64,000 bases of DNA, from NCBI GenBank assembly GCA_018816945.1, contig JAHIVC010000006.1, forward strand, positions 1 through 64,000, written 5' to 3'. Both the position numbers and the translations under genes were made by a program. The notes below the pieces were generated by a model. The model searched no databases. It had not been told where the DNA came from and saw nothing but the letters and a program-made list of their open reading frames with translations. This DNA comes from Bacteroidota bacterium (GTDB lineage: Bacteria; Bacteroidota; Bacteroidia; Bacteroidales; GCA-2711565). Shown here piece after piece: positions 11,486 through 16,976 of this stretch. Position 1 is the stretch's first letter. The number at the start of each line of letters is the position of its first letter.

Positions 11486-11550
11486 AGTTTTAGTAAATTG
11501 GACTTAAAACAATTTAGAATACCCAATACCAAATGATAAATGATTATTGT

Positions 11551-11592
11551 TGAATGCTGAATGTTGAATGTAGAATGTAGAATGCTGAATAA
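11551..11592. repeat. 7-bp tandem array (about 6 copies)
   Basis: Six consecutive 7-mers of the form [TA]GAATG[TC]: TGAATGC, TGAATGT twice, AGAATGT, AGAATGC and TGAATAA. It lies between the convergent ends of the secreted-protein gene and rsmE, and is non-coding. Confidence 0.7.
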
Positions 11593-11649: not shown

Positions 11650-12351
11650 TTATTCGTCATTCAAAAGATTGATGGCATGACAGGCAGCAATGGCAGCCGT
11701 TTCGGTTCGTAAACGGCTGCTGCCTAAGCTTACGGGAATGAATCCTTTTTTAATGGCTTGTTCAACTTCATCCGGACTGAAATCCCCTTCGGGCCCGATT
11801 AAAATTAAAACATCCGTTTTGGGTGTATATAATTTTTTTAATAACTGTGGTTTGCCTTCGCAGTAGGCAATAAACTTTTGTCCTTCAAATGGCTGATTGA
11901 TGAAATGATTGAATTTTACTGTTTCTGAAAGTTTCGGAAGATATGCTTTTAAGGATTGTTTGAGTGCCGAAATTATTACCTTTTCTAATCGGTTTATTTT
12001 CACTTCTTTTCTTTCAGAATGTTCACAAATAATTGGAGTGATACGGTCTATTCCTATTTCCGTAGCTTTTTCTAAAAACCATTCGTAACGGTCAATGCTT
12101 TTAGTAGGCGCAACAGCCATGTGAACCGAAAAGAACCTTTTACCATATTCCTTCTTTGTTTCCAGAATTTTTACGGTACTTCTTTTTGGATGATCATCAA
12201 CCAATTCCGTTTTATGCAAATTCCCATTTCCATCGGTAAGATAAATGATATCCCCAATCTTTAAGCGTAAAACACGGATGCAGTGTTTCGATTCCTCTTC
12301 ATTAAGGGTATAGTTTCCGGTTGTAATATCTGAACAATAAAATAGGTGCAT
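11650..12351 (-). CDS. rsmE: 16S rRNA (uracil1498-N3)-methyltransferase
   Basis: A 233-residue SPOUT-class methyltransferase that makes m3U1498 in 16S rRNA. The N-terminal PUA-like part contains HCIRVLRLKIGD (near 23-34) and YLTDGNG. The C-terminal trefoil-knot domain has ILIGPEGDFSPDE and SLGSSRLRTETAAIAA, the S-adenosylmethionine-binding knot motifs of RsmE. Length is standard. It stands alone on the minus strand next to an accessory patch and has no operon partner within 180 bp. Confidence 0.95.
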   Translation of the reverse strand: MHLFYCSDITTGNYTLNEEESKHCIRVLRLKIGDIIYLTDGNGNLHKTELVDDHPKRSTVKILETKKEYGKRFFSVHMAVAPTKSIDRYEWFLEKATEIGIDRITPIICEHSERKEVKINRLEKVIISALKQSLKAYLPKLSETVKFNHFINQPFEGQKFIAYCEGKPQLLKKLYTPKTDVLILIGPEGDFSPDEVEQAIKKGFIPVSLGSSRLRTETAAIAACHAINLLNDE

Positions 12352-12473
12352 GGGCTTTGTTCTGTTTTCATTTAATTTGTTTACAAGATATAAAATTGTT
12401 CGATTGCTTCATCTGCCTACCGCAGACAAGTTGCTCTATTGTTATTTCGATGATTTAAAATTAGTTTTCCCTG

Positions 12474-12542
12474 TTAGGCTGAGGTTCTAACCTCAGGCGA
12501 ACTTCTTTCTTTTTACTTATAGCCTCAAGCCAACTGGGCTAG
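12474..12542. repeat. REP-like element, left copy
   Basis: The hairpin CTGAGGTT-CT-AACCTCAG (12479-12496) is followed by a conserved tail. The 54 bases 12489-12542 match 14540-14593 with two mismatches (at 12497 and 12539). The hairpin part is repeated at 14364-14386. This copy contains the stop codon of the Mrr-type nuclease gene (12539-12541). The three copies alternate with the two genes of the accessory patch. Confidence 0.7.
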
Positions 12543-14335
12543 GGTTTTGCTTGCTTTTGTTCTTCTTCAGCTTCATTAATATTAATTCTAGCTTTATGAC
12601 CATGTTTCTCAAGTAAATACAATAAATTCCCTCCGTTAATCAAAGTGAGAGGTTTGTTTTTTGCAAATTCATATGAATCAGACCCAAAGTCAGAAGTAGT
12701 AACTAATATACCTTTAGATGCACCTTCATTTAGAACTGTCCCGTACAAATCTCTAACAGCAGAAACTCCCACAATATTTGTATACCTTTTAGCTTGGATA
12801 ACAATTTTACCCCCTTTTATTGGATCTGGGTCAAAAGCAACAGCATCAACTCCTCCATCTCTACTTGTTTGTGTAACCTTAACTTCACCTCCATTATTAC
12901 TAAATTCTCTTTCAAATATTTCTCTAATTAAATGTTCAAAATCTTCCCAATGCATGGCTGCTATATTTGTATATGAATTAATCTCTACTTCTTTTGAGGA
13001 TACAAAACGTTTGTCATGTTTGTCTATACTTAAAAGAGGTTTTATAGGGGTTAAATTACTTATTTTGCTGGCAGAGATTCCTTTTAAATTTTTAAAACAT
13101 ATTTTAGGTTCTACTTCAGATAAGTTTATATTTAAGAATTCATTTTTATTACAATGAACTGAAATAATGCAAGCTTTAATGGTTTTCCCAATAGCTCTAT
13201 TTATTGAATTTGTCCAACCATTGAAAACTATAGATTCAAGTTCATTAATACTATCATTAATAAATAATTTACTTATAGAGTTTAAAATAATTCTATAAAT
13301 AGTTTCATCAAAAAGTTTTTCAAGTTCTTTTTGCGAAAAATCCACTTCCTTATATTCATTTCTGGTTTTAATGAATCTTATTTCTTTTAATGTTGGGAAA
13401 TTCTCAATTGAAGGAAGTAAATAATCAACAATTAAAATTTTATTGGTTTCATTATATTCAATCTCAATTGATTTTTCGAATTCAGAATAATAATTAATGT
13501 TTTGTAAAAGTTTAGAACAAAATATTTCAATGGCTTGTTTTCTTTTTTTCTGGTAGTCTATTTTTAAATTATCAATTTGCGAATTTTTTATTCTCTGATC
13601 ATTATAAAAACTTTCTTTGCTATTTTCCCATTTTTTTTCTTTTTCTCTGATTTTATTTTCTAAGATGTTTTCTATTAGATTTAGTTCTTTTAGGGAAACT
13701 TCATAATATTCTTCTAAATTCTTATTAACTTCATTCTTTTTTTCTTCAATCTCAAATGATAGTGAATTATTTTTTTTATCATTTAATTTTGTCGGAATAT
13801 CAATTTCTACAAAATCTAACTTATTTAGATTATTTACTTTAGAAAGCTCTTCTCCAATCATTATTCTTGGATTAATATCTTTGAAATCCGATTTGTCATA
13901 AAACAAATCCCAAACACTAATATTATCCATATCATTTTCAATAAGTATATTTTCTAATTTATTTATTGCATTTTGAGAGATAGTTGCTCTTTCTGTGATA
14001 CCCAGATATAAATTATGATTATCAATTTTATTGCTATCTAAGTTCTCTATTAGTTCTTCTATTTTTCTTATTCTGGCTTCTTTTGATTTACTTATTAGGC
14101 TCTTTTGCTTTTCATATTGATTAGTAATATCAAGTCGGAGTTGTTCTAGTTTTTCTATATAAGATTCTCGTTTATTTTCTTGGTTTGTGAAATAATTGAA
14201 TAATGAAATTATTATTATTACAATTATTACACTACTGAATATTACAATCCAATTTTCAGCAATAAATTGAAATATTTGTACGATAATAAATATAATTATT
14301 CCAAGAATAATTAATAGTCCTAAACCTTTTTGCAT
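12539..14335 (-). CDS. membrane-anchored Mrr-type restriction endonuclease
   Basis: A 598-residue protein. Two hydrophobic helices (about 5-27 and 31-50) anchor the N terminus. Long coiled-coil stretches follow (about 55-105 and 190-280, rich in Glu, Lys, Asn and Ile), then an unrecognised middle region. The C-terminal Mrr catalytic domain starts near 461 (HWEDFEHLIREIFE). Its PD-(D/E)xK core is visible as DGGVD (493-497) and QAK (514-516), so the nuclease centre looks intact. Mrr-type domains cut DNA, often modified DNA, and occur in phage defence and DNA quality control. The gene looks more AT-rich than its neighbours and is bracketed by REP-like repeats, suggesting acquisition. Target and trigger are unknown; the membrane anchor is the distinctive feature. 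Confidence 0.85.
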   Translation of the reverse strand: MQKGLGLLIILGIIIFIIVQIFQFIAENWIVIFSSVIIVIIIISLFNYFTNQENKRESYIEKLEQLRLDITNQYEKQKSLISKSKEARIRKIEELIENLDSNKIDNHNLYLGITERATISQNAINKLENILIENDMDNISVWDLFYDKSDFKDINPRIMIGEELSKVNNLNKLDFVEIDIPTKLNDKKNNSLSFEIEEKKNEVNKNLEEYYEVSLKELNLIENILENKIREKEKKWENSKESFYNDQRIKNSQIDNLKIDYQKKRKQAIEIFCSKLLQNINYYSEFEKSIEIEYNETNKILIVDYLLPSIENFPTLKEIRFIKTRNEYKEVDFSQKELEKLFDETIYRIILNSISKLFINDSINELESIVFNGWTNSINRAIGKTIKACIISVHCNKNEFLNINLSEVEPKICFKNLKGISASKISNLTPIKPLLSIDKHDKRFVSSKEVEINSYTNIAAMHWEDFEHLIREIFEREFSNNGGEVKVTQTSRDGGVDAVAFDPDPIKGGKIVIQAKRYTNIVGVSAVRDLYGTVLNEGASKGILVTTSDFGSDSYEFAKNKPLTLINGGNLLYLLEKHGHKARININEAEEEQKQAKP

Positions 14336-14363
14336 TTCTAGAGTTATTATTAATATACCCCTA

Positions 14364-14386
14364 TTAGGCTGAGGTTCTAAGCTCAG
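14364..14386. repeat. REP-like element, middle partial copy
   Basis: The 23 bases starting TTAGGCTGAGGTTC match 12474-12496 at 22 positions (one change at 14381). They lie 29-51 bp upstream of the nuclease ATG and lack the 45-bp tail seen in the other two copies. Confidence 0.6.
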
Positions 14387-14528
14387 TCGAAATATTTAAC
14401 ACAGGCTATGCCTGTATGTAACAAATCAAATATGTTTTCCAGCGAAAGTTAAGAAAAATAAATCAACTAATGATTCCAGTCCTGCATAATTTCGGACACC
14501 AGATAGGCAAAGCCTACAAAAATAGAAC

Positions 14529-14593
14529 GACCGAGGTAAAACCTCAGCCGAACTTCTTTCTTTTTACTTATAGCCTCAAGCCAACTGGGTTAG
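14529..14593. repeat. REP-like element, right copy
   Basis: A variant hairpin (GAGGT with ACCTC, 14533-14545) is followed by the same tail as the left copy; 14540-14593 matches 12489-12542 at 52 of 54 bases. It ends 9 bp from the stop codon of the upstream membrane-protein gene, so both genes of the patch carry this element at their 3' ends. Confidence 0.7.
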
Positions 14594-14602
14594 AACACGA
14601 CT

Positions 14603-15256
14603 CTAAACATTCATTTTTGCTTTAATTTTTCTTATATACTCTTCTGTAGGATCATTTATTCCTTGGCTCTTTAAACTAAGCAAACCTTTTAATGCTGGTT
14701 CTTGTAAAACCTCATATGCCAATCCAAGAGACCCTATTGCAGCAATTGCTGCTACTTGAGATCCGGCACCTACTGGTAAAACTCTTGCAGCAATATCTAG
14801 TTTTTTCGTTACATCAGTAAGATTATTTAGATCACCAAAGTCTTTTTTCTCAATTATATCTTTATCAAATAATTTCTCTATAACTTTTTCTGACAAAACA
14901 TTGATTTTTCTGCTATGCGCAATGTCAAATGTTTCTGAAAATAGTTTAAGAAGTTTCACATCATTTTCAGCTTGAGCACTTTTTGAAAGTCTGATTTCCT
15001 CTTGGACTTTTAATCGGTATTGACATATCGCGATAATAATCCCAACTGATACAGATAGCATAGTAATAATTTGCGAAATCGGGATTAACCATAATTCAAA
15101 GAATCCAATTTTCCCGTTGTCCTTACTCAAATTCTCAGTTATTGCTTTTGTTTGTGTAGGAACTTTTGAATGGATTGAATCTTGAGCATTAGAGATAGTA
15201 AATGTGAATAGAACTATTATCAAAGCAGCAAACACTATTTTAGTTTTCATATTCAT
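14603..15256 (-). CDS. membrane protein of unknown function beside the Mrr nuclease
   Basis: A 217-residue protein that I do not recognise. It has a signal-peptide-like start (hydrophobic 6-23, possible cleavage after ISNAQ), a short polar stretch, a second hydrophobic helix about 54-79 (LWLIPISQIITMLSVSVGIIIAI), then a charged and helical C-terminal part of about 135 residues. Near 155-190 is an Ala/Gly-rich segment (VGAGSQVAAIAAIGSLGLA) that could be an amphipathic or membrane-associating helix. It lies 267 bp upstream of the Mrr-type nuclease on the same strand, with a REP-like copy in between. The proximity may mean a shared function or only a shared insertion hot spot. Confidence 0.6.
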   Translation of the reverse strand: MNMKTKIVFAALIIVLFTFTISNAQDSIHSKVPTQTKAITENLSKDNGKIGFFELWLIPISQIITMLSVSVGIIIAICQYRLKVQEEIRLSKSAQAENDVKLLKLFSETFDIAHSRKINVLSEKVIEKLFDKDIIEKKDFGDLNNLTDVTKKLDIAARVLPVGAGSQVAAIAAIGSLGLAYEVLQEPALKGLLSLKSQGINDPTEEYIRKIKAKMNV

Positions 15257-15509
15257 ACTTTTTTATGATTGAATTATTGTCTAATGACGATCTCAATATT
15301 TTGTGTGTTCTAACTACTAAATAAGCAGCAATTTTGCAGCCTATCACTCGTTAAACTTTTGTTTAAGAACTGATTTTCAAATTATTATATAAAATATGCT
15401 TTACGAACACTGCCAAACATGTATTTCTGTAAATTTACGTTGTATAAATTTATACTATTAAAGTAAGTAAAAAATTAAAATAGTAATACGACAGCCAAAA
15501 AAATTATTT

Positions 15510-15753: not shown

Positions 15754-15795
15754 TTTTTCATTTATCCTTTTTCATTTATCCTTTTTCATTTATCA
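15754..15795. repeat. 14-bp tandem array (3 copies) between cydB and the CydX-like gene
   Basis: Three copies of TTTTTCATTTATC plus one base, followed to 15818 by TTCATCA-like 7-mers that run up to the cydB stop codon (15819-15821). The unit is twice seven bases, matching the 7-bp periodicity of other arrays in this window. Confidence 0.7.
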
Positions 15796-15818
15796 TTCAT
15801 CATTCATCATTATTCATT

Positions 15819-16976
15819 CTAATAAGAGTGTCCTCCTTCATTCATCTCATCTTCAGTGATCTTTTTATTGTTAATGGCTTTCCATGCCCACCAAATATAG
15901 GCAATTACAAAGGGAACCAATAAAGAAACATAACTCATGGCTGTTAAAGTGTATTGGCTTGATGAAGAATTTTCAATGGTCAGCGAACTTTGCAAATCGA
16001 AAGTGGAAGGATAAAAAGCGGTATGATTAAAACCGGCCATCAAAAATAAGGAAAAGACCGTAAAAATAATACCAAACCCGGTAGCCCAAATCCCTTTATC
16101 ATGGCATACTTCAAAACAAGTGATGGTTCGGTAAATCCCCAACAAAACCAAAATCACACCGATAGCGAAAAGTGCAAATAACCAGGGCATTTCAAGCAGG
16201 TTGTGCAGGTATTTGTATGATTCCATACTAACAATTTTAGTTTCCGGGTCAACCGCAAATCCTTTCATTAATAACAGATTAGCCACAAAGAACAAAAAGA
16301 AAACTACGAATGGAATCGCCTCTCTTACCAGTTGTTTACGGGCACGTTCAATGATATTTCCATGGGCAACCGTATTGATAAAATACAAGAGTGCCATGGT
16401 GCGAGACAGAAAAAACACGGCCAATCCCAATGAAAGATTAATGAAGGTGTTATAATTTGTAAAATCAAAAGCCAATTCAAGCCCCCGAAATGAATTTCTC
16501 CAGGTTGATTGATTCATGTCGTTTATTGAAAATTCGGAACCTGTAAAAAAAGTCGCAACAGCGGTTCCGATCAGGATCGTTCCAAGTAGTCCATTGACAA
16601 ACAGAAAGGTTTCATAGGTTCTTGATCCCAGAAAATTATTGGGTTTCGACCTGAACTCATAGGCAATTGCCTGAATGATAAAGCAGAACAAAATCAGCAT
16701 CCAAACCCAATAGGCACCGCCAAAACTGGTGGCATAAAATAAGGGGAAAGAAGCAAAAAATGCACCTCCGAAAGTAACCAGCGTCGTAAAAGTAAATTCC
16801 CATTTTCTCCCGAGCGCGTTGATAATTATTTTGCGTTCCATCTCCGTTTTGCCCAAGGTGTAAATCAGGGTTTGCCCTCCCTGAACAAACATCAGAAAAA
16901 CCAAAATGGCAGCCAACAGTGATATAATAATCCACCAGTATTGCTGTAATGCTAAGTATGATAAATTTTCAAACAT
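15819..16976 (-). CDS. cydB: cytochrome bd ubiquinol oxidase subunit II
   Basis: A 385-residue inner-membrane protein with about eight to nine transmembrane helices, starting with YWWIIISLLAAILVFLMFVQGGQTLIY (the conserved CydB N terminus with GGQ). It partners CydA in the quinol oxidase that reduces oxygen to water without pumping protons and has high oxygen affinity. Only 1 bp separates its start codon from the cydA stop codon, so the two are translationally coupled. The C terminus (EDEMNEGGHSY) is a short polar tail. A CydX-like gene follows after repeats. Confidence 0.95.
   Translation of the reverse strand: MFENLSYLALQQYWWIIISLLAAILVFLMFVQGGQTLIYTLGKTEMERKIIINALGRKWEFTFTTLVTFGGAFFASFPLFYATSFGGAYWVWMLILFCFIIQAIAYEFRSKPNNFLGSRTYETFLFVNGLLGTILIGTAVATFFTGSEFSINDMNQSTWRNSFRGLELAFDFTNYNTFINLSLGLAVFFLSRTMALLYFINTVAHGNIIERARKQLVREAIPFVVFFLFFVANLLLMKGFAVDPETKIVSMESYKYLHNLLEMPWLFALFAIGVILVLLGIYRTITCFEVCHDKGIWATGFGIIFTVFSLFLMAGFNHTAFYPSTFDLQSSLTIENSSSSQYTLTAMSYVSLLVPFVIAYIWWAWKAINNKKITEDEMNEGGHSY

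Follow-up and report, generated by a model that had tools for sequence, protein, structure and literature searches.

A putative membrane-anchored Mrr-type nuclease in an apparently variable cydB–rsmE interval of a Bacteroidota genome

Two adjacent genes in a Bacteroidota genome raise the question of whether they form one defense system or are separate acquaintances of the same site. They lie in a 64,000-nt stretch of DNA (the window, to which positions refer unless another locus is named) from a genome assembled as 108 contigs with 4.14 Mb in total, between ORFs at 15819–16976 and 11650–12351 (both minus strand) that we take to be cydB and rsmE. The interval holds two co-oriented ORFs: a 598-aa Mrr-type nuclease gene (12539–14335, minus; from the ORF list, Pfam, and PADLOC) and a 217-aa membrane protein gene (14603–15256, minus; from the ORF list). 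The initial annotation read the pair as a candidate two-part defense module of an undescribed kind. Its description of the genes themselves, with their positions, shared minus strand, and AT-richness, was borne out: the nuclease gene has 25.7% GC, the lowest among the 41 window ORFs listed, and the 217-aa gene 31.8%, vs. 36.1% for the whole window.

The interval, its repeats, and a sister genome

In the sister genome G002, where the name cydB is backed by Pfam, a single contig has cydB and, 4.1 kb away, the beginning of rsmE, and the flanking DNA is 89.7% identical to that of the window over 1,691 columns. The flanks that the two genomes share stop at 12486 and 15310, and the stretch between them (12487–15309, no strand assigned) differs. 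The G002 interval (L029:7502–10820) has a 66-aa ORF, a 342-aa ORF, and an S41 peptidase gene; neither of the first two matches a PADLOC model, and the 342-aa one, which has a hydrophobic N-terminus, also has no match in Pfam, NCBIfam, or PHROGs. Since the sister genome has other genes in the same interval, the best reading is that of a variable site with, in the window, two independent accessory genes, and the earlier description of the patch as accessory holds. Gene turnover has presumably taken place here. Fragments related to the window repeats occur within the G002 replacement stretch, and recombination at such repeats is perhaps the route. In genomes G001, G003, and G004, cydB is absent from the 13.6–19.9 kb around rsmE. 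The patch DNA has no match among plasmids.

Each of the two genes had been described as ending at a copy of the same 54-bp repeat. Both copies are indeed there, one (12489–12542, plus) overlapping the nuclease stop codon and the other (14540–14593, plus) ending 9 bases from the stop of the 217-aa gene, and they are 96% identical, far above chance. They are not specific to the patch, however, since a different contig, C55, has a third copy that differs at 2 of 40 bases. A genome search with 40 bases and up to 3 mismatches gave three copies in total, and none with a reversed-pattern control. The C55 copy is ~130 bases 3' of an ORF unrelated to the patch, presumably peptidase-like, and all three copies are 3' of a gene and on the opposite strand to it. 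The repeat is a dispersed element and no mark of a module. A 33-bp repeat with a palindromic core (12469–12501, plus) has a second copy at 14359–14391 (91%), and short tandem repeats with a 14-base period are found at 11532–11589 and 15754–15809.

Other origins of the patch were considered and rejected. A repeat-bounded transposon would not fit direct copies that are each 3' of a gene, with a third elsewhere, and no integrase-, transposase-, or relaxase-like ORF was seen on reading the ORFs from cydB to rsmE. An RNA element is set aside because the window has no Rfam match at gathering score and the folding of the repeats is ordinary (z −1.37, −0.05, and 0.06), and a tRNA-linked insertion because the window has no tRNA.

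Distribution of the two genes

The 267-bp gap between the genes (14336–14602) was taken from the start to speak against a single operon, and it does contain a terminator-like hairpin (14528–14550, minus), which is weak alone (one found, 1.2 expected in shuffles). Sequence related to this hairpin lies 3' of the S41 peptidase gene in the sister genome.

Among 395 sampled genomes of the class, both genes are found together in one only, the genome that holds the window (G000). The nuclease search, which scored no more than three first-look candidates in each genome and may therefore undercount relatives, gave G000, G017, and G247 at E 1e-20 or better; the search with the 217-aa protein gave G000, G150, and G375, and a 395-genome draw from the phylum returned the same two relatives. 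In the six genomes of the genus, each gene is in G000 alone. Seen from the nuclease side, a partner-like ORF is present at none of the loci of the 80 most similar among at least 347 confirmed genome relatives, of which 47 have 5 kb or more to each side, so that a more distant partner could be missed; nor is there one at 14 further loci, eight of them with a nuclease relative. From the other side, no nuclease relative lies in the 19.9 kb surrounding either relative of the 217-aa protein. As a control, the partner profile recovers its three source sequences, and the window 217-aa protein alone recovers the other two. The two-part module was rejected on this co-occurrence, and the 217-aa gene looks like an independent neighbor, unrelated to the nuclease.

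The 217-aa protein has no recognized family, as was first noted: it falls below every Pfam cut-off, and NCBIfam gives no match either. Hydropathy gives hydrophobic segments from residues 7 and 60, of which the first looks like a signal peptide on reading the sequence; the G150 and G375 relatives are without one. The structural model has a mean pLDDT of 44.7, with the remainder predicted helical at low confidence. Weak matches are to PADLOC 2TM_IV (E 2.7e-4, residues 8–126) and to Kiwa-like (E 0.016) and holin-like (E 0.057) entries. No relatives were found in plasmids, phages, viral contigs, or the genome_contigs set, and no defense gene was recognized on reading the ORFs in the 12 kb around each of the two relatives.

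The nuclease and its anchored branch

The larger protein had been described as an intact Mrr catalytic domain joined to two N-terminal membrane helices and long coiled coils, and each of these elements was recovered. Pfam places Mrr_cat at residues 459–574 (12614–12961, minus; E 2.5e-30, 105.4 bits vs. a cut-off of 21), and Glu467, Asp497, Gln514, and Lys516 are unchanged in all 51 aligned sequences. The PADLOC type IV restriction model mREase_IV (PDLC03663) matches residues 246–582 (E 1.8e-51). The nuclease and middle domain are thus common to the window protein and that family, while residues 1–245 lie outside the match, and the window protein has two membrane helices in place of the family N-terminus. 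By this match, the nuclease itself is of a known kind.

Membrane helices were assigned by hydropathy alone, from two strongly hydrophobic segments, one beginning at residue 7 (Kyte-Doolittle 3.01 over 19 residues) and the other at residue 29 (2.69). An AlphaFold2 model from the 51 aligned sequences (mean pLDDT 81.5, lower in the membrane part, at 53–69 per block) gives the order helix 4–27, helix 29–128, helix 190–262, an alpha/beta domain to about residue 416, and the nuclease. The first membrane helix (residues 5–21; 14273–14323, minus) corresponds to model helix 4–27 and the second (residues 30–46; 14198–14248, minus) to the start of model helix 29–128. Long coiled-coil-like helices follow in the model (residues 47–128 and 190–262, with low confidence at 173–189; 13550–14197, minus), and then the middle alpha/beta domain (about residues 266–416; 13088–13540, minus), which has no Pfam match though it is conserved across the family. 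A fold search, which covered mainly residues 445–580 and gave a match confined to residues 457–583, put the nuclease domain closest to AspBHI (Z 11.9) and MspJI (Z 11.2) over 121–124 residues. To our knowledge, neither of these enzymes has a membrane anchor or coiled coils. An SRA-like modified-base domain is typical of the MspJI/AspBHI family; a whole-protein Pfam scan named no modified-base reader domain, SRA-like ones included, in the window nuclease. Comparisons with sequences of solved structures gave one chance-level match in one search and none in another.

Among the 80 most similar of at least 347 genome relatives, hydropathy gives N-terminal hydrophobic segments in four, and 76 are without them. 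Three Flavobacteriaceae proteins, from Croceivirga (L032), Allomuricauda (L033), and Mangrovimonas (L036), can be aligned with the entire window protein at 51, 51, and 43% identity, and in an 86-row tree of C-terminal pieces the four form one branch with support of 100/95, the order inside it being less certain (99/53). L062 was rejected as a member; it has a hydrophobic N-terminus, but a soluble-type stretch behind it and another position in the tree. The branch appears small and well supported, with four members among the best 80 of at least 347 relatives, and since these are united on one branch, the anchored form looks like a single inherited variant within a broad nuclease family, which, among the matches listed, spans many phyla and extends to a Methanosarcina genome. 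The original idea of a membrane-tethered Mrr nuclease is thereby supported by hydropathy, as a trait of a small conserved branch. A search of 384 genomes from the order with the branch profile gave two more matches, both cut by contig ends on the N-terminus side. Across the four members of the branch, 1–3 positive charges lie in the short N-terminus before the hairpin and none in the loop; the stretch of 25 residues that follows the second helix has 4–8, mixed with 3–5 negative ones. This pattern suggests that N- and C-terminus are both cytoplasmic.

Many of the non-anchored relatives (L034–L111) start with a IRHDGLNKYRVIKG-like stretch; in L041, L043, and L046 it has no Pfam name. A count of an N-terminal motif, 61 of the best 80 of at least 347, comes from a loose regular expression and carries no weight here. 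In G017 (L023:73–2020), the middle domain is apparently fused to a presumably exonuclease-like N-terminus, in a frame that stops short of any Mrr domain.

An integrase gene adjoins the nuclease gene in two of the three anchored relatives, 195 bases before it in Croceivirga, with a relaxase gene farther on, and immediately after it in Mangrovimonas. Mobile defense genes often adjoin integrases, and these positions fit that habit. An ORF similar to either integrase is present in 7 of the 80 nuclease loci (best 80 of at least 347). The expected enrichment near defense genes turned out weak: of ten neighbors scanned around the three anchored relatives, one has a PADLOC match, an exonuclease with a BRCT domain in Croceivirga. 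A defense association, as judged from neighbors, is suggestive, not strong.

Possible roles at the membrane

The reading that we favor, tentatively, is a one-gene defense nuclease at the inner membrane, SNIPE-like in its action and with an independent neighbor. What the computation shows is the domain content, a complete set of catalytic residues, a hydrophobic N-terminal hairpin, one branch that unites the anchored proteins, and no fixed partner. From the family label, the intact active site, and the lack of a fixed partner we infer that this protein cleaves DNA and restricts foreign DNA by itself. The N-terminal helix hairpin would anchor the nuclease in the inner membrane with both ends cytoplasmic, and the coiled coils, probably oligomerizing, would hold the middle domain and the Mrr nuclease, of PD-(D/E)XK type, just under the membrane. 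There it would cut foreign DNA on entry, while the tether would keep it off most of the chromosome and might in this way discriminate own from foreign DNA.

According to PMC13190303, SNIPE (PD-lambda-1) is an anchored nuclease that cleaves phage DNA during injection, requires its DUF4041, and becomes toxic once the anchor is lost; its homologs vary at the N-terminus, with an anchor in most, not all. SNIPE as described there and the window protein are alike in being one chain with an N-terminal anchor (by hydropathy in the window nuclease), an elongated middle, and a C-terminal, cytoplasmic nuclease (PMC13190303). SNIPE has one membrane helix, DUF4041, and GIY-YIG, whereas the window protein has a two-helix hairpin, another middle domain, and Mrr. 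With Pfam at E up to 1, neither GIY-YIG nor DUF4041 is found in the window nuclease, Mrr_cat being found instead, and DUF4041 is absent from six relatives at E up to 0.1. The likeness is one of layout, not homology, and the window protein, though it is not SNIPE, may work like it. A more specific form of this, an Mrr-type SNIPE counterpart in which the hairpin replaces a soluble N-terminus, phage DNA is cut at injection, and the arrangement was invented independently in Bacteroidota, is conceivable but on balance doubtful. PMC13190303 does not mention Mrr, and searches of open-licence PMC papers gave none whose title or abstract describes a membrane-anchored Mrr nuclease. PMC9519451 describes a DUF4041 protein and also a beta propeller joined to an Mrr-family domain. 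Zorya and Kiwa are likewise membrane defenses that target DNA (PMC12904381), but they use separate membrane proteins, and ZorD, which by its PADLOC label bears an Mrr-like nuclease, uses a helicase; in the window, anchor and nuclease are in one chain.

Several points count against the favored one-gene reading: the family can do without the anchor, which is absent in 76 of the best 80 of at least 347 relatives; the fold is nearest to modification-dependent enzymes, which pick their targets by base modification; one of the ten scanned neighbors of the anchored relatives has a PADLOC match, and the same-site ORFs of G002 (66 and 342 aa) have none; the branch with the anchor is small, at four members; and DUF4041 is absent. 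It is possible, if less likely, that this is an ordinary type IV-like restriction enzyme, with modified DNA recognized by the middle or nuclease domain and the membrane location adding little. The mREase_IV label agrees with this, as do the titles of the nearest fold matches, AspBHI and MspJI, as modification-dependent or restriction enzymes, and the presence of nuclease and middle domain without membrane helices in most of the best 80 of at least 347 relatives; however, Pfam names no reader domain, and a hairpin kept across the branch at 43–51% identity suggests selection on the hairpin. The integrases beside two of the three anchored relatives, the relaxase near one, and the scarcity of defense-like neighbors would suit a role other than antiphage defense, either in the service of mobile elements (entry exclusion of rivals, DNA processing) or in host repair at the membrane. 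This seems unlikely, as the interval around the window copy, read from cydB to rsmE, contains neither an integrase- nor a relaxase-like ORF, and the family label and relatives point to restriction. Joint action of the nuclease and the 217-aa protein is very improbable: adjacency, a common strand, a shared repeat at the 3' end of each gene, AT-richness, and the weak 2TM_IV match speak for it, but it is opposed by the gap with its hairpin, the empty 80 (best of at least 347) and 14 further loci, the nuclease-free surroundings of both partner relatives, and co-occurrence in one of 395 genomes.

If the anchor matters as the favored reading has it, the targeting of incoming DNA by location would have had more than one origin, on nuclease folds that are not related. 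The non-anchored relatives provide a natural control, since nuclease and middle domain are the same in tethered and untethered proteins.

Matches to the nuclease occur in 201 plasmid records, where its relatives carry the annotation "restriction endonuclease." In two of four plasmid loci that were opened (L018:1936–7035 and L019:1748–7017), a helicase of 1137–1188 aa (PADLOC MkoC, E 1.6e-57 and 3.2e-57) lies directly before the nuclease relative, and the two may form a two-gene system; no MkoC-like helicase was found near the 80 genome relatives (best 80 of at least 347). At another locus (L116:294–2652), a SIR2-like gene (Pfam SIR2_2, E 1.2e-5) begins 16 bases after the nuclease relative.
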